A stretch of 9,026 nucleotides of DNA from Alistipes sp. GTDB lineage: Bacteria; Bacteroidota; Bacteroidia; Bacteroidales; Rikenellaceae. Below are positions 1-8,903 of the stretch, piece after piece (position 1 is the first letter of the stretch; each line of letters opens with the position of its first letter). The notes under the pieces are model-generated. The model was not told the origin of the DNA, ran no database searches, and saw nothing but the letters and a program-made list of their open reading frames with translations. Position numbers and translations under genes: made by a program. Where the stretch lies: NCBI GenBank assembly GCA_017559685.1, contig JAFYQY010000011.1:1-9026 (forward strand). The letters are read 5' to 3'.

Positions 1-555
1 ACACGAATAGAAATAATCGGCATCTACACCGCTCTCGGCGATAGCATTGGTAACAAAGCCCTTAATGCCCACCGAGCCATCAGCCGTTGCGATGATAACC
101 TTTGCGCCGGCCTCCTCGAACTTCTCGGCATAGAAAATCTCCGACTCGGTATTGAAGCCGAGCACTACGGTAACCTCCTTGCCTCGTGCAATCAAGTCTC
201 GAGTCAAGCGATAGAGAGGCGGAACGCCCACGCCACCGCCAACGAGCAACGGTTTCTCGCACTCGTGGTCGATATTAAAGCCATTTCCGAGACCGGTCAA
301 CACATCCAACTGTGTACCCTCAGCCATCTGCGACATCAAGTCGGTACCCTTGCCTACTACTTTATATATAAGTGTAAGCTCGCCCTCCTCGTAGTTGCAG
401 ACCGAGATTGGTCGGCGGAGGTACAATCCGTCGAGAGCGATCTCGACGAACTGTCCTGCTCGAGTAACGCCCGACACATCACCTGCGAGATGCATCTCGT
501 AGATGAGAGGTGTCAGCGCCTCATTTTTAGTTACGGTTAATACTACTCGTTGCAT
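1..555 (-). CDS. pyrK: Dihydroorotate dehydrogenase B, electron-transfer subunit PyrK (3' end outside window)
   Basis: Partial gene: 185 codons are present, running off base 1 in frame, of about 255 usual for the family. PyrK carries FAD and a 2Fe-2S cluster and passes electrons from the class 1B dihydroorotate dehydrogenase PyrD to NAD+. Visible in order: an N-terminal beta-barrel (residues 1-95) with the flavin-binding RPIS motif at 48-51 and a GKGT turn at 69-72, then the Rossmann-like NAD domain opening with LLVGGGVGVPP at 103-113. The window ends at YFYSC, the start of the usual (S/C)CGP motif. The cysteine cluster that would bind 2Fe-2S lies beyond the window and cannot be checked. I chose the ATG at 555-553 because it is the first Met after the carB stop and gives a family-like start (MQRVVLTVTKNE). 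It lies 9 nt after carB, so it belongs to the pyr operon. pyrD probably follows. The assignment is firm. Confidence 0.93.
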   Translation of the reverse strand, partial: MQRVVLTVTKNEALTPLIYEMHLAGDVSGVTRAGQFVEIALDGLYLRRPISVCNYEEGELTLIYKVVGKGTDLMSQMAEGTQLDVLTGLGNGFNIDHECEKPLLVGGGVGVPPLYRLTRDLIARGKEVTVVLGFNTESEIFYAEKFEEAGAKVIIATADGSVGIKGFVTNAIAESGVDADYFYSC

Positions 556-564
556 TCTACCCCA

Positions 565-3500
565 CTATTTTGCGTTATACTCAGCGTCGATAGTCGACAC
601 TCCGAGAGTAATCTCCTCCAAAACATCGAGCAATGCGCTTACAGTCTCGAGCGCCGTAATGATCGACACATTATTCTCAACTGCTGCGTTACGAATCTCG
701 TAGCCATCAAGACGAGTATTGTGCTGATTTACGTCGATAGTATTGATTACGTAGCTTACGTGACCCTTCGACAACGACTTAGCGATATCGTCGCTACCCT
801 CGCTAATCTTGCGCAACAAGCGTGTACGCAAGCCGTGCTCACGAAGGAATGCTGCTGTACCCGAAGTTGCCTCCAAGTTGAAACCGAGGTTGTAGAAGCG
901 ACGGATAAGCGGCAAAGCAGCCTCCTTGTCCTTGTCTGCGATAGTCAAGAGTACTGTTCCGTAGTTCACAACGGTCATACCCGAAGCCTGCAACGACTTG
1001 TACAATGCACGTGTGAGCGAAGCGTCGTAACCGATAGCCTCACCTGTAGACTTCATCTCAGGCGAGAGATATGAATCGACACCCTTAATCTTTGCAAACG
1101 AGAATGCAGGAGCCTTAACGAAGTGGCGCTTAGGCTCTACTCCGTAGACCTCTGTGATACCCTGTGATGGCAACGACTCGCCCAACATTACTCGGGTTGC
1201 AATCTTCGCCATAGGCACATTTGTAGACTTCGACAAGAAAGGTACGGTACGTGACGAACGAGGATTTACCTCAATCACATAGACCTTATCCTCTGCGTCT
1301 ACGATAAACTGAATATTGTAGAGACCAACAATACCGATAGCACGACCAAGTCGCACGGTATAGTCAATCATCTGCTCCTTAACCTTTGCGCTCAAAGAGA
1401 ACGAAGGATATACGCTGATAGAGTCACCCGAGTGAACACCGGTATGCTCTACGTGCTCCATAATACCTGGGATAAAGACATTGCCCTCAGCGTCGCAGAT
1501 TGCGTCAACCTCGGCCTCCTTACCCATAATATACTTATCAACCAATACCGGCGAATCCTCAGTAACCTCTACAGCGTTGTGCAAGTAGTGACGCAAAGCC
1601 TGCTCATTACCTACAATCTGCATTGCACGACCTCCCAATACGAAGCTTGGACGTACCAATACAGGGTAACCGATATTTGCAGCAGCCTCGACACCCTCCT
1701 CGATATCGGTAACCGCCTTTGCCTTTGGCTGTGGAATACCAACCTCACGCATAATTGCCTCGAAGAGCTTTCTATCCTCGGCTCTGTCGATAGCCTCGAT
1801 GCCCGTACCTACAACCTTCACACCCATCTTCTCGAGTGGCTTTGCAAGGTTGATAGCGGTCTGACCTCCAAGAGTTACGATAACGCCGTCTGGCTTCTCC
1901 ATACGGATAATATTCATCACGTTCTCCACGGTGAGTGGCTCGAAGTACAACTTATCCGAAATTGTAAAGTCGGTCGAAACGGTCTCAGGGTTATTGTTGA
2001 TAATGATAGCCTCGTAACCCGCCTCACGGATAGCCCAAATCGAGTGTACTGTCGAATAGTCGAACTCTACACCCTGACCGATACGGATAGGACCCGAACC
2101 GAGCACCACAATCTTCTTGCGGTCGCTAACTACAGACTCATTCTCCTCCTCGTATGTCGAATAGAAGTAAGGCACATAACCCGAGTACTCGCCTGCGCAA
2201 GTATCGATAGTCTTATATACAGGCTTAATACCCAACTCCTGACGCAACTCGAACACCTCCGACTCGGTCATATCCCACAATTGACCGATAAACTTATCGC
2301 CAAAGCCGATACGCTTAGCCTCGAGCAACACCTCACGGTCGCCCTTGTGAGCCTTAACCTCACGCTCGTAGTTTACGATATTGTCCATCTTCTTCAAGAA
2401 GAACATATCGATCTTGGTGCGGTCGTAAATCAACGAACGATCTACACCACGACGCAACAACTCTGCGATACCGTAGATGCGGTCGTCGGTAGCACGAGTG
2501 ATGTACTGCAAAATCTCAGCAGTAGCCATAGAGTCGAACTTCTTGTGATAGATGTGGCAAACGCCTGTCTCGAGCGAGCGAACTGCCTTCAATAAGCTCT
2601 CCTCGATAGTACGACCGATGCTCATAACCTCGCCTGTAGCCTTCATCTGTGTACCGAGCTCGTTCGATGCCTCGCTAAACTTATCGAATGGGAATCGAGC
2701 AACCTTAGTTACGATGTAGTCCAATGCTGGCTCCGAGCAAGCAGGGCCATTCGAGAGCATAATTTCGTCGAGAGTCATACCCACAGCCACCTTCGCAGTT
2801 ACACGTGCGATAGGGAAACCGCTCGCCTTCGATGCCAAAGCCGATGAACGAGAAACTCGTGGGTTAACCTCGATAATATAGTAGTTGAACGAGAGTGGAT
2901 CCAATGCGAACTGTACGTTGCAGCCACCCTCAATCTTCAATGCACGAATAATCTTCAATGCGCTGGTACGCAACATCTGCGCCTCCTTGTCGGTCAAGGT
3001 CTGGCACGGAGCAACCACGATAGAGTCACCTGTGTGAACACCTACAGGGTCAACGTTCTCCATATTACAGATGGTAATTGCGGTATCGTTGCTATCACGC
3101 ATTACCTCGTACTCAATCTCCTTGTAGCCCTTGATACTCTTCTCTACCAACACCTGGTGTACTGGCGAGAGTGCCAAAGCGTTACGCATCAACTCACGCA
3201 ACTCCTCCTCGTTGTCGACGAAGCCGCCACCTGTACCACCGAGTGTGAAGGCTGGACGGAGTACCAACGGATAGCCAATCTTCTTCGCAACCTCGACACC
3301 CTCCTCGATTGTATTTACAACCTCCGAAGGCAATACAGGCTCGCCCAAGTCGATACAGAGCTGCTTGAACAACTCTCTATCCTCGGCCTGCTCGATACTC
3401 TCGAACGATGTTCCGAGAATCTCAACACCACACTCCTCCAACACGCCCTTCTTTGCGAGCTGTACGGCGAGGTTAAGACCTGTCTGACCTCCCAAACCTG

Positions 3501-3762
3501 GAACAATAGCGTCTGGACGCTCGTAGCGAATAATCTTTGCGACATACTCCAACTTCAAAGGCTCCATATAAACCTTATCAGCGATGAATGTGTCGGTCAT
3601 AATGGTTGCAGGGTTCGAATTCACGAGTATAACCTCGTAACCCTCCTCTTTCAATGCAAGACAAGCCTGTGTACCTGCATAGTCGAACTCGGCTGCCTGA
3701 CCAATAACGATTGGGCCCGAGCCGATAACCATAACTTTCTTTATATCTGTTCTTTTAGGCAT
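565..3762 (-). CDS. carB: Carbamoyl-phosphate synthase large subunit CarB
   Basis: 1065 residues, full length (E. coli CarB is 1073). It makes carbamoyl phosphate from bicarbonate, two ATP and ammonia, in the cytosol as a heterodimer-based complex with CarA. The two homologous synthetase halves are clear. The first opens with [13 protein letters not shown] at 10-22 and has Arg129, Arg169 in [13 protein letters not shown], Glu215, Gln284 and the metal-binding EVNPR at 298-302, all matching E. coli positions by eye. The second opens with [13 protein letters not shown] and carries [14 protein letters not shown] and [16 protein letters not shown]. The last ~130 residues are the MGS-like allosteric domain. 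Thr966, Thr969, Lys985 and Asn1007 align with UMP-contacting residues of the E. coli enzyme, so feedback by UMP is plausible (inference). Its ATG lies inside the end of carA (8-nt overlap, 3755-3762), suggesting translational coupling. The synthetase looks fully functional, which matters because its CarA partner lacks glutaminase residues. Confidence 0.98.
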
Positions 3763-4846
3763 TGTGATTCTCCTCCATCAATTTAATGAACTTATCGAAA
3801 AGATATGCGCTATCCTGCGCTCCCGGAGCCGACTCCGGATTGTACTGCACCGAGAAGGTCTTATCCTCTACACACTCGATACCCTCGACTGTATTGTCGA
3901 TCACGCTACGGTGGGTAACTGCGAGTGGAGTCTTCTCCAACGAGTTCTCGTCAACGAAATAGAGCGAGCCCTGAGCTGTAATCTCGATCTTGCCGTTCTC
4001 CAAGTTGCGTACTGGGTGACCACCACCACGGTGAACGCCCTCGATTTGTGACACCTCAGCACCGTATGCCAAAGCTACGAGCTGGTGTCCGAGACCTGTA
4101 CCGAAGATAGGCAACTTGCCACGCAACGACTTGATCAACTCCACAACCGAAGGAACATCTGCTGGTGCTCCAGGGCCATTCGACACGAGAATACCGTGAG
4201 GGTTGAATGCCAAAATCTCCTCTGCCGATGTATTGAACGGTACAATCACAACATTGCAACCACGCTTGTTGAGCATACGCACCAAGTTCAACTTTGCACC
4301 GCAATCAACCAAAACCACATCGAAACGGTGGTTTGGAGTGCGAGAGTACCAACGCTTTTTGCAACTTACACGCTCAACTGCGTTGTGTACTACAGGTGTA
4401 GCAGCGATAAGTGCCAACGCCTCCTCCTTCGACATCTCAGCCGAAACGATAGCTGCACGACAGCTCTTCGAGTCACGAATAATGCGAGTGAGCATTCGGG
4501 TATCTACACCGCTAATTCCTGGAATTGAGTACTCCTCCATCAACTCCGAGATGGTCTTTGTGTAGCGGAAGTTGCTCGGGGTCTTACACTCCTCACGAAC
4601 TACCAAACCGCCAATTGAAAGGCCACGAGCCTCGAAGTCCTCATCGGTAATACCGTAGTTGCCGATTGTAGGATAGGTCATCACTACAATCTGATTGGTA
4701 CAGGCAGGATTTGACAAAATCTCCTGATAGCCAGCCATCGAGGTGTTGAATACGATGTCGCATACCGCCTGTGTGTCGGCACCGAAACCGTAACCCAAGA
4801 ACTCCTGACCGCTCTCCAAAACTAATTTTTTGTCGGGTTGTTTCAT
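3755..4846 (-). CDS. carA: Carbamoyl-phosphate synthase small subunit CarA with degenerate glutaminase site
   Basis: 363 residues. An N-terminal CarA domain (about 1-150: [12 protein letters not shown] at 33-44, YPTIGNYG at 58-65) is followed by a class I glutamine amidotransferase domain (about 175-360: SNGPGAPAD at 222-230, FGTGLGHQ at 248-255, HRGGGHPV at 272-279, NPESAPG at 336-342). Family members normally hydrolyse glutamine and channel ammonia to CarB. Here the catalytic residues are gone. The GICLGHQ nucleophile Cys (E. coli Cys269) is Gly251 (codon at 4096-4094, GGT), and catalytic His353 is Asn336 (codon at 3841-3839, AAT). Glutamine contacts Ser47, Asn311, Gly313 and Phe314 align with Ala48, Gly293, Leu295 and Tyr296. 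Glu338, Leu252 and Gln255 are kept. The frame is open and the rest of the fold well conserved, so this is not a pseudogene by inspection; it probably serves as a scaffold for ammonia-dependent CarB. The ATG at 4846 lies 21 nt after pyrC behind an A-rich stretch. Family certain; loss of glutaminase is a strong inference. Confidence 0.95.
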
Positions 4847-4867: not shown

Positions 4868-6139
4868 TTATTTGTTTTCCATCCAAACCTTCTCGCCACC
4901 GAAGAGTGTCAGCACACAGCGACCGTAAACCTCCTCGCCCTCGAAAGGCGTCGCCTTACCCATCGACAAGAACTCATTTGGGTCGATTGTATAAGGCTTT
5001 GTAATATCAAATACTGCAATATCGGCTCTCTCGCCAACACGCATCGCTCCGCCCAAGCGGAAGATGCGACGAGGATTCTCCGACATCAACTGAATCAACT
5101 TCTCAATTGTAATCACACCCTTACGTACAAGGTGCGTGTAGCATATAGCAAACGAGGTCTCAATGCCTACGATGCCCATCATCGAACCCTTCAAACCACG
5201 AGACTTCTCCTCGGCAGTATGAGGTGCGTGATCGGTAGCGATAACCTCGATAGTGCCATCCTTAATACCCTCGATAAGTGCAGCCTTATCCTCCTTTGCT
5301 CTAAGTGGCGGATTCATCTTAAAGCGACCATCCTCCTGCAAGTTCTCGTCACACAAAACAAGGTAGTGAGGCGCTGTTTCGCACGAAATGTGCGCACATT
5401 TCTGCTTCGCCCCACGAATAATATCGACACTCTCCTTAGTCGAAATGTGGCAAACGTGGTAGCGACACCCCTCCTGCTGCGCCAACTCCACATCACGCTT
5501 AATTGGCCCCCACTCGCTCTCCGAACAGATTCCCTTATGGCCATTTGCACGAGCATACTCGCCATCGTGGATATATCCTGCGTGGAGCAATGAATCATCC
5601 TCGCAATGTGCTGCAATAATTCCATCAACCGCCGCAATGCGCTGCATAGCCTTACGCATCAGTTCCTCGGTCTGGATACCATTTCCGTCATCAGAATAGC
5701 CAACCGACAATGGTCGCAACGCCTCGATATCGGCCAACTCTCGGCCTGCACGGTGCGACGAGATTGTCGCAAATGGCAACACCTCGATTACAGCCTGCTC
5801 ATCTATCATCTGCTGTTCGATTGCTATAGTTTCGGGTGCATCGGGTGCAGGTTGAAGATTAGGCATTGAGCAAACTGTAGTCACTCCGCCACGAGCCGAA
5901 GCACGTGTTCCTGTAGTTATTGTCTCCTTTGCCGAGTAGCCCGGTTCACGCAAATGAACGTGCACATCAGCCAAGCCGTAGGTCACAACACAACCCTCCG
6001 CATCAAACACTTCCACATCCGCATCCACAGCGAGAGATTCGCCTATTGCCTCGATCTTCCCATCAACAACAAGCACATCAGCCTTGCGGCTAACACTCTC
6101 TGACACAACGGTTCCACCCTTCAAAAGCAACTTACTCAT
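4868..6139 (-). CDS. pyrC: Dihydroorotase, class I (PyrC)
   Basis: 423 residues. A cytosolic amidohydrolase-fold metalloenzyme that interconverts carbamoyl aspartate and dihydroorotate, the third step of UMP synthesis. Length and motifs fit class I dihydroorotases (Aquifex/Bacillus type, about 420-430 residues) rather than the shorter class II E. coli enzyme. Metal ligands are visible in order: His60 and His62 in DVHVHLREPG, the Asp of YSDDG (150/151, Asp as in the Aquifex class I enzyme), His178 in AAHCEDD, His231 in CHIST and Asp303 in ATDHAPH. A hydantoinase-like C-terminal beta segment ends with RADIAVFD at 371-378. One small deviation: the usual Pro-Gly before the first His motif reads Tyr-Gly (TYGLADVH, 53-60). 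It is the first gene of the operon, behind a ~190-nt leader. The ATG at 6139 is preceded by TAGGTT, a weak AGG at short spacing, and sits 13 nt after the terminator-like stem and its T tract, so both transcription and translation of the operon could be gated there. Confidence 0.97.
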   Translation of the reverse strand: MSKLLLKGGTVVSESVSRKADVLVVDGKIEAIGESLAVDADVEVFDAEGCVVTYGLADVHVHLREPGYSAKETITTGTRASARGGVTTVCSMPNLQPAPDAPETIAIEQQMIDEQAVIEVLPFATISSHRAGRELADIEALRPLSVGYSDDGNGIQTEELMRKAMQRIAAVDGIIAAHCEDDSLLHAGYIHDGEYARANGHKGICSESEWGPIKRDVELAQQEGCRYHVCHISTKESVDIIRGAKQKCAHISCETAPHYLVLCDENLQEDGRFKMNPPLRAKEDKAALIEGIKDGTIEVIATDHAPHTAEEKSRGLKGSMMGIVGIETSFAICYTHLVRKGVITIEKLIQLMSENPRRIFRLGGAMRVGERADIAVFDITKPYTIDPNEFLSMGKATPFEGEEVYGRCVLTLFGGEKVWMENK

Positions 6140-6392: not shown

Positions 6393-7580
6393 CTATCTCG
6401 GTAAAATTTTAACTCCGAGCTTCGCATAGGCTCTTTCAGCCTTTGCCAAAGCATCCTCAATCGAGGTACCCGTAGCCAAAATTACACCAAAACGACGATG
6501 TCCGACAACCTCAGGTTTACCAAAGAGGCGAATCTGAACACCCTCCTCTTCGAGCACCTTCTCGATATTCTCAAACTCAACCTTATCGGTGTCACCCTCG
6601 ACAACAATAGCCTTCGATGCGCTTGGCGCAATAAAGCGAACAGCAGGAATTGGCAAACCCAAAACGGCACGAGCGTGGAGCGCAAACTCCGACAAATCTT
6701 GCGACGCCATAGTAACCATTCCTGTATCGTGCGGACGAGGCGAAACTTCGCTAAAAATAACCTCGTCGCCCTTGATAAACATCTCCACACCAAAGATTCC
6801 GTAACCACCTAACGCATCGGTAATTACACGAGCCACCTCTTGTGCTTTTGTATATGCTTTTTCGCTCATTGGCTGAGGTTGCCACGACTCACGATAATCG
6901 CCATCAACCTGGTGGTGTCCGATAGGTTCCAAGAGTGTTGTTCCACCAATATGGCGAACGGTCAAGAGCGTGATTTCATAGTCGAAATCGACAAAACTCT
7001 CAACGATAACTCGGCCTGCTCCTGCTCGACCACCCTCCTGTGCAATATGCCAAGCTCGATCGATATCCTCAGCCTTCTTAATAGTAGACTGACCGTGACC
7101 CGACGAACTCATAATAGGCTTTACAACGCAAGGGATACCGATCTCTGCAACCGCCTGCTCAAACTCCTCACGAGTATCAGCAAATCGATATGCAGCAGTC
7201 TTAAGACCGCACTCCTCGGCAGCCAAACGACGAATACCCTCACGATTCATAGTAAGCCATACAGCATTTGCTGTAGGAGCTACACGATAGCCCTCCTTCT
7301 CGAGTTCAACGAGCACAGGAGTAGCGATAGCCTCCACTTCGGGGATGATGATATCTGGCTTCTCAGCCACGATAATCTCACGCAAACGCTCGCCATCGAG
7401 CATCGAGAGAACATAACTACGGTGTGCCACCTGCATAGCAGGAGCATTCTCGTAGCGATCCAACGCAATAACCTCTACGCCATATCGTTGCAATTCGAGC
7501 GCAACCTCTTTGCCGAGCTCACCCGAGCCGCAAAGAATAGCCTTTTTTGCCACCGACGTAAGTGGAGTTCCTATCTTCAT
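6393..7580 (-). CDS. purT: Formate-dependent phosphoribosylglycinamide formyltransferase PurT
   Basis: 395 residues (E. coli PurT 392). An ATP-grasp enzyme that uses formate and ATP to formylate GAR in purine synthesis, bypassing the folate-dependent PurN step; cytosolic. The sequence tracks E. coli PurT almost throughout: [13 protein letters not shown] at 17-29, [15 protein letters not shown] at 41-55, PEVEAIAT at 80-87 (GAR site), [15 protein letters not shown] at 109-123, [12 protein letters not shown] at 183-194, [10 protein letters not shown] at 227-236, metal-binding Glu266 and Glu278 ([21 protein letters not shown]), FGKPE at 353-357 and the HRRFGV pair of arginines at 361-366. One deviation: the Gly-rich loop reads SSSGHGQ (158-164) where E. 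coli has SSSGKGQ. It starts 15 nt after the purA stop, behind AT-rich sequence, so it is probably cotranscribed with purA. The ATG at 7580 is the only sensible start. Confidence 0.97.
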
Positions 7581-7595
7581 ACTATTATAATATTA

Positions 7596-8903
7596 TTATC
7601 GAACAATTGTCTCTGCACGATCTGGACCCACCGAGATAATCTTTACAGGCACACCAGTCTCCTTCTCGATAAACTCAACGTACTCCTTGAACTCAACAGG
7701 GAAATCCTCGTACTTGCGAACGCCACAGATGTCACAATTCCAGCCCTTGAACTCCTTGTAGATAGGCACGATATCGTCGGTGCACTCGTATGGGAAGTAG
7801 TCGAGCTGCTTGCCATCCAACTCATAACCAACTGCAACCTTGATAGTTGAGAACTCGTTTAAGACGTCGCTCTTCATCATAATCAATTCGGTTACGCCGT
7901 TCATCATAACGGTATACTTCAACGCTACCAAGTCCAACCAGCCACAACGACGTGGACGACCTGTAGTAGCACCAAACTCGTTACCAATCTGGCGCAAAGT
8001 CTCGCCTGTAGTATCGAACAACTCAGTTGGGAATGGGCCACTACCCACACGAGTACAGTACGCCTTGAAGATACCGTACACATTGCCGATGCGGGTTGGA
8101 GCAACGCCCAAACCATTACAAACACCCGAGCAAAGTGTGTTAGACGATGTTACATAAGGGTATGTACCGAAGTCGATATCGAGCAACGAACCCTGAGCAC
8201 CCTCAGCCAAAATCGAAGTGCCGCTATTGAGCGCCTCGTTCACCATCTGCTCGCTATCCACGAACTGGAACTTACGCATAGCCTCAATACCCTTGAACCA
8301 CTCCTGCTCATAAGCGGTAATGTCGTACTGATAAGCGTACTGACGAAGCATCTCCTCGTGCTTTGCCTTCAAGCGGTTGTAGCGCTCCTCGAAATCAGGC
8401 ATCAAGATATCGCCAACACGCAAACCGTTACGGCCTGTCTTATCCATATAAGTTGGGCCGATACCCTTCAAAGTCGAACCAATCTTAGTCTTACCCTTAG
8501 CAGCCTCGCTCGCAGCGTCGAGCATACGGTGGGTAGGCAAAATAAGGTGAGCACGCTTCGAGATAACCATATGCCTAGATACGTCCACACCCATCTTCTC
8601 GATATCAGCAATCTCCTCAGCGAGAATTACAGGATCGATAACAACACCGTTACCGATAATGTTCATAGCCTCGTCACGGAAGATTCCCGAAGGAACTGTG
8701 TGCAACACAAAGCTCTTACCCTCGAACTTCAACGAGTGACCAGCATTTGGACCACCCTGAAAACGTGCAATAGCCTGATAATTAGGAGTCAACACATCGA
8801 CAACCTTACCTTTACCCTCGTCACCCCACTGGAGTCCGAGTACTACATCTAATTTTTTCCTTGTTGTATAATTGTTTTTTGAGTTATCACATTTACGCTT
8901 CAA
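7596..8903 (-). CDS. purA: Adenylosuccinate synthetase PurA (start codon uncertain)
   Basis: 435 residues if read from TTG at 8903; the conserved protein begins near KKLDVVLGLQWG (16-27). It joins IMP and aspartate using GTP to give adenylosuccinate, the first committed step to AMP. Signature GDEGKGK (27-33) contains catalytic Asp28, and GPNAGH (51-56) contains catalytic His56. Also present are HTVPSG, GIGPTYMDKTGRNG (about 148-161, IMP site), EGAQGSLLDIDFGTYPYVTSSNT (about 233-256), TGRPRRCGW (about 314-322), KSDVL, and the C-terminal SVGPDR guanine-binding motif. The core is complete. The problem is the start. No in-frame ATG, GTG or TTG exists between 8903 and the conserved core, and codon 15, where family members place Met before KKLDVV, is AGG (8861-8859). 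The TTG overlaps the likely -7 box. The extra 14 residues are therefore doubtful. First gene of the purA-purT pair. Confidence 0.95.
   Translation of the reverse strand: MKRKCDNSKNNYTTRKKLDVVLGLQWGDEGKGKVVDVLTPNYQAIARFQGGPNAGHSLKFEGKSFVLHTVPSGIFRDEAMNIIGNGVVIDPVILAEEIADIEKMGVDVSRHMVISKRAHLILPTHRMLDAASEAAKGKTKIGSTLKGIGPTYMDKTGRNGLRVGDILMPDFEERYNRLKAKHEEMLRQYAYQYDITAYEQEWFKGIEAMRKFQFVDSEQMVNEALNSGTSILAEGAQGSLLDIDFGTYPYVTSSNTLCSGVCNGLGVAPTRIGNVYGIFKAYCTRVGSGPFPTELFDTTGETLRQIGNEFGATTGRPRRCGWLDLVALKYTVMMNGVTELIMMKSDVLNEFSTIKVAVGYELDGKQLDYFPYECTDDIVPIYKEFKGWNCDICGVRKYEDFPVEFKEYVEFIEKETGVPVKIISVGPDRAETIVR

Follow-up and report, generated by a model that had tools for sequence, protein, structure and literature searches.

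Gut bacteria related to Alistipes probably feed carbamoyl-phosphate synthetase free ammonia in place of glutamine, as the vertebrate urea-cycle enzyme does

According to a passage of a review (PMC6245113), glutamine is the physiological donor for the carbamoyl-phosphate synthetase (CPSase) of E. coli and, by extension, for all bacterial CPSases; the ammonia reaction of the E. coli enzyme is possible, but needs very high, probably non-physiological concentrations. Parts of a structural study of human CPS1 (PMC4655335) state that all CPS types except CPS1 use glutamine, that human CPS1 carries Ser294 in place of the nucleophile Cys, and that E. coli variants with a blocked tunnel have normal activity with external ammonia. 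Our literature search, which covered titles and the openings of abstracts, mostly from outside subscription journals, returned no earlier report of a glutaminase-dead bacterial CarA.

The window, that is the whole stretch of 9,026 nucleotides that was analysed, comes from an Alistipes species and carries a pyrimidine operon on its minus strand. Its upstream neighbours are purA (adenylosuccinate synthase, 7596..8903, minus strand) and purT (formate-dependent GAR transformylase, 6393..7580, minus strand). They are followed by pyrC (dihydroorotase, 4868..6139), directly upstream of carA (3755..4846), by carB (565..3762) and by a gene for a pyrK-like electron-transfer subunit of dihydroorotate dehydrogenase (1..555), all on the minus strand; the last is cut by the window end and is followed by pyrD in relatives, in which the operon is complete. 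The names pyrK and pyrD are putative and were given from sequence and position. As originally predicted, carA overlaps an apparently fully active carB: the end of carA shares 8 bases with it, and the large subunit (1065 amino acids) agrees with E. coli at 17 of 18 checked residues, which we take to be the catalytic set. The eighteenth, D207E, is common to all 182 rows of relatives, and these preserve the other catalytic residues. The ammonia gate residues C232, A251 and A314 are present in the window CarB, in all 111 CarB rows whose CarA lacks the nucleophile Cys (Cys-less), in four carA deletions and in three rows at contig edges.

The carA reading frame, from 4846 to 3755, is intact, as the original prediction had stated, has no internal stop and encodes 363 amino acids. 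The codons that this prediction had singled out, GGT for Gly251 (4094..4096, minus strand) and AAT for Asn336 (3839..3841, minus strand), align with the nucleophile Cys269 and with the general base His353 of E. coli CarA, respectively. In E. coli numbering the triad thus reads Gly269, Asn353 and Glu355, and of the residues that mark a glutamine-hydrolysing CPS II only Glu355 is retained; the nucleophile of the glutaminase domain is replaced, as it is in ammonia-dependent CPS. The protein nevertheless matches the CarA model TIGR01368 over its full length (residues 7-358; 389.3 bits against a curated cut-off of 307.35), and the overall fold of E. coli CarA is preserved. A sequencing error was excluded, in line with the original prediction, because the Gly/Asn pair is also found in 11 complete CarA sequences from other genomes, and a twelfth, which ends before His353, has Gly.

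All six further substitutions that had been listed there are present in the pocket: S47A, N294G, N311G, H312S, G313L and F314Y. They differ in weight when compared with 98 Cys-bearing rows of relatives (56 genomes and 42 named loci, which may repeat some of the genomes). The changes at S47, N294, N311 and H312 are strong evidence, since each of these positions is invariant in all 98 rows, and they include the glutamine contacts S47 and N311, now Ala and Gly. F314Y is weak evidence because Tyr314 is present in 76 of the 98 rows, and so is G313L, because Gly313 occurs in none of these rows (86 Ser, 12 Asn), to which E. coli does not belong. Taken together, it is close to certain that the window CarA has lost its glutaminase function. 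Automatic annotation conceals such a loss: a protein 82% identical to the window CarA, with Glu at the nucleophile position, is annotated at its source as 'glutamine-hydrolyzing'.

The positions of the nucleophile and of His353 were scored across 268 genomes from the family of the window's nearest relatives. CarA was read in 172 of them and was of the window type (more than 45% identical to the window CarA) in 167; the other 96 genomes had a distant CarA type alone, fragments or no CarA match. Cys269 is present in 56 of the 167 genomes and absent in 111, where it is replaced by Gly (39), Ser (33), Asp (32), Ala (3), Glu (2) or Asn (2). His353 is lost as well in 66 of the 111, retained in 44 and cut off in one. 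No Cys-bearing CarA of any kind was found in 106 genomes, among which G116 and G117 carry a second copy that is likewise Cys-less. The other five (G137, G148, G177, G179 and G249) have an additional CarA of the distant type, which was read and is Cys-bearing in G148 and G249, and which scored 454-456 bits in the other three, where its sequence was not read. Most of these genomes are metagenome bins of unstated completeness, so that single absences are weak evidence, while the overall pattern is not. The 14 nearest named loci all come from Alistipes or Rikenellaceae metagenome bins, and each of these 14 genomes has exactly one CarA match, which is Cys-less; a second carA, a point raised by the original prediction, was sought in them and found in none.

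Several loci depart from this arrangement. Two CarA types stand side by side in G137, G148, G177 and G179 (L140, L141, L145, L146, L334), one with Gly269 and one distant, the latter read, and Cys-bearing, in G148; this is possibly a division into ammonia and glutamine enzymes, like that of vertebrate CPS I and II. At L177 (G116) the distant CarA type is also without its nucleophile (Gly269, Ile353) and adjoins its own carB. Ten genomes (G051, G071, G073, G075, G256, G257, G194, G195, G196 and G208; L278-L283 and L287-L290) encode a second, CPS1-like CarB of about 1075 amino acids without an adjacent carA, and a CarA match over the cut-off was found in none of them. The gate residue Cys232 is Ala in all ten of these lone CarBs. 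A gene near this CarB in G195 and G196 presumably corresponds to argB, which it resembles.

Ammonia in the hindgut is high, and the original prediction had argued from an ammonia-rich gut habitat. This argument was borne out in part. Ten of the 14 nearest loci are labelled as colon, caecum or rectum of sheep, yak, water deer or water buffalo (the other four name no host in the title), and 28 of the 38 Cys-less loci among 80 named loci carry a ruminant large-intestine label. However, the same kind of sample also yields some Cys-bearing CarA of other bacteria (Paludibacteraceae; L039, L044, L058), and habitat alone is therefore no full explanation.

To follow the history of the change, trees were built from CarB, because CarB carries none of the altered residues. 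Two trees, one of 159 rows and a maximum-likelihood one of 71 rows, each split the rows without Cys or without carA into about nine groups, separated by Cys-bearing rows. One group contains the window, with Gly/Asn, Glu/Asn, Asn/His and Ser/His forms at positions 269/353. The others are an Asp/Gln group; one in which Gly, Ser and Ala occur, mostly alongside Met in place of His272; one that combines Gly269 with Asp or Glu at 353; the Gly/His forms around G231; three single rows (G017, G036, G043); and a carA-less group. A single clade of the 42 rows without Cys in the 71-row tree was rejected (p-AU 5.6e-74), as was a union of the three largest groups (p-AU 5.7e-4), with the groups for these tests named after the tree had been seen and many forks poorly supported. 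By parsimony, the 71-row tree needs 8 changes and the 159-row tree 12, with three contig-edge rows of the latter scored as non-Cys. These loss counts are a reading of two trees; the figure of nine counts each separate group without Cys or carA and assumes that Cys was never regained. As carA and carB adjoin, transfer of the whole operon leaves the count unchanged, while recombination between the two genes could change it. A single origin is thus rejected, and the trees suggest about nine origins of this state within one family.

In the carA-less group, the gene is missing altogether. Four genomes (G047, G063, G115 and G119) have the order pyrC-carB-pyrK-pyrD with only 36 to 96 bases between pyrC and carB, and no CarA match was found elsewhere in these genomes at E 0.001. 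Their neighbours in the larger tree, G158 and G134, are Cys-bearing and have carA in that place. Absence of CarA was not scored as a loss in G149, G154 and G155, where carB begins at or near a contig edge, or in G085, which has only a partial carB.

We compared pocket conservation and selection between the two classes of CarA. Eleven positions (S47, N240, G289, H290, G292, N294, H295, Q310, N311, H312 and P360) are invariant in the 98 Cys-bearing rows and all variable in 136 Cys-less rows (111 genomes, 24 named loci with possible repeats, and the window). From pairs with dS 0.15 to 1.8, the window group has a median pairwise dN/dS of 0.049 in the N-terminal half of CarA and 0.075 in the glutaminase half; 17 Cys-bearing Alistipes-like rows give 0.106 and 0.156, and the 42 Cys-bearing named loci give 0.046 and 0.043. 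In the group that pairs Gly269 with Asp or Glu at 353, the glutaminase half is looser (0.207 versus 0.093). A frameshift or pseudogene reading of carA was rejected, given the absence of internal stops and the purifying selection. The low dN/dS indicates that CarA is retained for a role other than hydrolysis, most simply as structural partner of CarB.

A second role could also be imagined, in which the dead pocket was repurposed as a sensor of glutamine or another ligand that tunes an ammonia-fed CarB. Such a role would be compatible with ammonia use and fits the purifying selection on the glutaminase half. It also fits the Asp/Gln group, where the site is uniform: all 31 unique rows have Asp269, Gln353 and Asp355, and all 31 keep Q273, N311 and H312. 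Across 30 genomes of this group (e.g. L034, L077, L218) Asp269-Gln353-Asp355 is combined with Thr47, with the rest of the pocket preserved, and this site looks repurposed rather than decayed. In the window group, however, the pocket is heavily changed (S47A, N294G, N311G, H312S, G313L), unlike a conserved glutamine site, and carA can be deleted. On the whole, a sensor is unlikely.

We return to the reading of the original prediction, an ammonia-fed synthetase with a scaffold CarA, which is favoured by the single carA of the nearest genomes, the intact CarB, the selection, the fold, the repeated loss and the deletion of carA. Judged from these comparisons of genes, it is highly probable that the operon encodes a CPSase unable to hydrolyse glutamine, which would use free ammonia with CarA as scaffold. 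Ammonia from the ammonia-rich gut lumen or the cytosol would enter CarB at or near the CarA interface, pass the gate formed by C232, A251 and A314, and attack carboxyphosphate to give carbamate. The second half of CarB would then phosphorylate carbamate to carbamoyl phosphate for pyrimidine synthesis, along the usual two-ATP path. CarA would remain the structural partner of CarB, although its deletion in a related lineage means that it is dispensable in principle. Since the E. coli enzyme needs very high ammonia concentrations, this reading requires a gain in affinity. When CarB was searched for adaptive changes matching the loss in CarA, no convincing one survived the controls of a column scan and an independent-pairs test. 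The scan, in which the Cys-bearing comparison set of 35 rows was dominated by one clade, gave 23 columns shifted in three or more of the groups without Cys or carA versus 5 in the reversed control, several of them near the gate (Y317F, S253A, N258D). These parallel changes were rejected as ammonia adaptations because E. coli, with a glutamine enzyme, has F317, A253 and D258, and for Y317F the independent-pairs test gave a median p of 0.25.

Other glutamine amidotransferases were read in genomes of relatives, not in that of the window itself. The PurF nucleophile Cys1 is absent in seven of 11 genomes read (G006, G008, G011, G013, G037, G083 and G047; G044 lies outside the 11). Arg73, presumably a glutamine-binding residue, is replaced by Leu in nine of the 11 and retained in G158, whose CarA is Cys-bearing, and in G066. 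The seven Cys-less PurF proteins (L405, L403, L404, L402, L408, L409 and L399, from G008, G006, G011, G013, G037, G083 and G047) begin with MSVLxVY, without Cys at the nucleophile place, and have Leu73; in those of G006, G008, G011 and G013, Asp127 is Asn as well. Of the best 120 relatives of the G008 PurF, 80 are canonical and three combine Cys with Leu73; the other 37 are without the aligned Cys (35 Met, 2 truncated), and every one of them has Leu73.

The glutaminase domain of GuaA is shortened or gone in 20 of 25 genomes read, and all 20 have a Cys-less or absent CarA: in 19 the N-terminal part is short and lacks the segments that carry Cys and His, and G017 has no such domain. In the short forms the SGGVDS motif lies at residue 143-147, or at 167 with an upstream extension, versus 219-228. 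GuaA is full length in the remaining five, four of which are Cys-bearing genomes. The short proteins L362, L363 and L365-L381, with a glutaminase remnant, measure 431-455 amino acids. As a special mark of this lineage short GuaA is weakened, because its best 120 relatives, from a search in which at least 8000 candidates were scored, all of them relatives, include Bacteroidaceae and Muribaculaceae names, and the form is common in gut Bacteroidales. GMP synthetases are able to use external ammonia, as stated in an excerpt of PMC10526850.

In CTP synthase (PyrG), the nucleophile Cys is changed to Ser in G083 and to Asn in G037, and is intact in the other 12 of 14 read. A CTP synthase was found by TIGR00337 or PF06418 in none of 12 close relatives of the window (G001-G003, G005-G013), nor in G017, G046, G047, G061, G063, G115, G119 and G129, and a search with PF06418 only gave none in G096 and G109. 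The genomes without a match still have genes of the pyrimidine operon. The missing gene may reflect another CTP route, cytidine dependence or incomplete bins. G129, in which CarA is Cys-bearing, showed neither PyrG nor a GuaA over the cut-off, and gene absence from a single bin is thus weak evidence.

The coupling between these losses is imperfect: G066, of the Asp/Gln group, combines a dead CarA with intact PurF, GuaA and PyrG, and G036 and G061 retain the PurF Cys. The PurL glutaminase motif GICNGFQ is retained in 12 of 12 genomes, and glutamine is therefore still used somewhere. With part of the E. coli enzyme as query, GlmS was matched in G037, G083 and G158 only, of 12 genomes. The change in CarA appears to belong to a broader shift of nucleotide synthesis from glutamine to ammonia. 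We think it moderately likely that one gut family is dismantling its glutamine amidotransferases across these pathways, which would be fed free ammonia: the CarA nucleophile lost about eight times and carA deleted once, the PurF nucleophile lost together with its Arg, the GuaA domain reduced to a remnant, and the PyrG nucleophile lost in two genomes with the gene not found in others. If true, nature would here have run, in replicate, the experiment of giving up ammonia channelling, and the absent CTP synthase would indicate either a novel way of making CTP or an obligate need to take up cytidine.

The same losses bear on the idea that another glutaminase docks on CarB and supplies ammonia in trans, so that the enzyme is glutamine-fed in practice. 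Another partner could replace CarA, and in a scan of six genomes, four had one or two class I amidotransferase domains in addition. But the glutaminase functions of PurF and GuaA are lost in close relatives too, CarA is the sole PF00117 match at E 1e-8 in two of the six (G008 and G061), and gaps of at most 257 bases leave no room for another gene in the window operon; a docked glutaminase is highly improbable. A decaying operon, with CarAB inactive and the cell living on pyrimidine salvage, would suit genomes of about 1.4 to 2.4 Mb and the CTP synthase not found in the 12 close relatives, which suggests some dependence on salvage. It is contradicted by the complete operon in relatives, the low dN/dS, the preserved catalytic residues of CarB and the same state in many species, and we give it only the slightest chance. 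There is next to no probability that another, intact carA lies elsewhere in the genome of the window and supplies the glutaminase, since none of the 14 nearest genomes has a second copy and, in the five more distant relatives with a second CarA of the other type (Cys-bearing in G148 and G249), this copy adjoins its own CarB in four, the two that were read being 34-35% identical to the window CarA.

With a glutaminase-dead, ammonia-fed CPS as the preferred reading, the window's family appears to break the glutamine-donor rule for bacterial CPS many times, and a bacterial ammonia-fed CPS would have been reached repeatedly within one family. Confirmation would mean that, for these hindgut bacteria, the glutamine demand, the nitrogen-flux models and the sensitivity expected towards glutamine-analogue inhibitors are wrong. 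The family also offers a natural series from glutamine enzyme through scaffold to deletion, most with Cys-bearing relatives for comparison, in which a gain in ammonia affinity becomes testable.

Compared with the glutamine-dependent CPS II of E. coli, the window enzyme shares the fold, the subunit make-up and the CarB active sites, but its CarA is without Cys269, His353 and most glutamine contacts, and some relatives are without CarA. Vertebrate CPS I (PDB 5DOT, 5DOU, 6UEL) likewise keeps an inactive glutaminase remnant with the nucleophile replaced; for the window enzyme, we infer the ammonia feeding. CPS I is mitochondrial, consists of one fused chain and is activated by N-acetylglutamate, whereas the window has carA and carB as separate genes for two subunits in a bacterial pyrimidine operon, and His353 is lost too. 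In CPS I, by a passage of PMC4655335, Gln318 blocks the tunnel, where the window CarA has Gly293, and we infer a separate origin of the two. The CPS III of Alcolapia fish represents another independent shift of a glutamine CPS towards ammonia; as described in part of PMC7657897, it prefers ammonia and lacks a glutamine-binding residue but retains the triad, which is gone from the window CarA. The carbamate-kinase-like synthesis of Pyrococcus, according to sections of PMC6022934 and PMC6245113, also makes prokaryotic carbamoyl phosphate without a glutaminase subunit, with an amino-acid-kinase fold, whereas the window retains an ATP-grasp CarB. Finally, the E. coli CarA mutants C269S (PDB 1C30) and H353N (chain sequence of 1A9X) are changed at the same two positions, and Ser269 and Asn353 both occur naturally in the window's family; what was made there in the laboratory is here fixed across many species.
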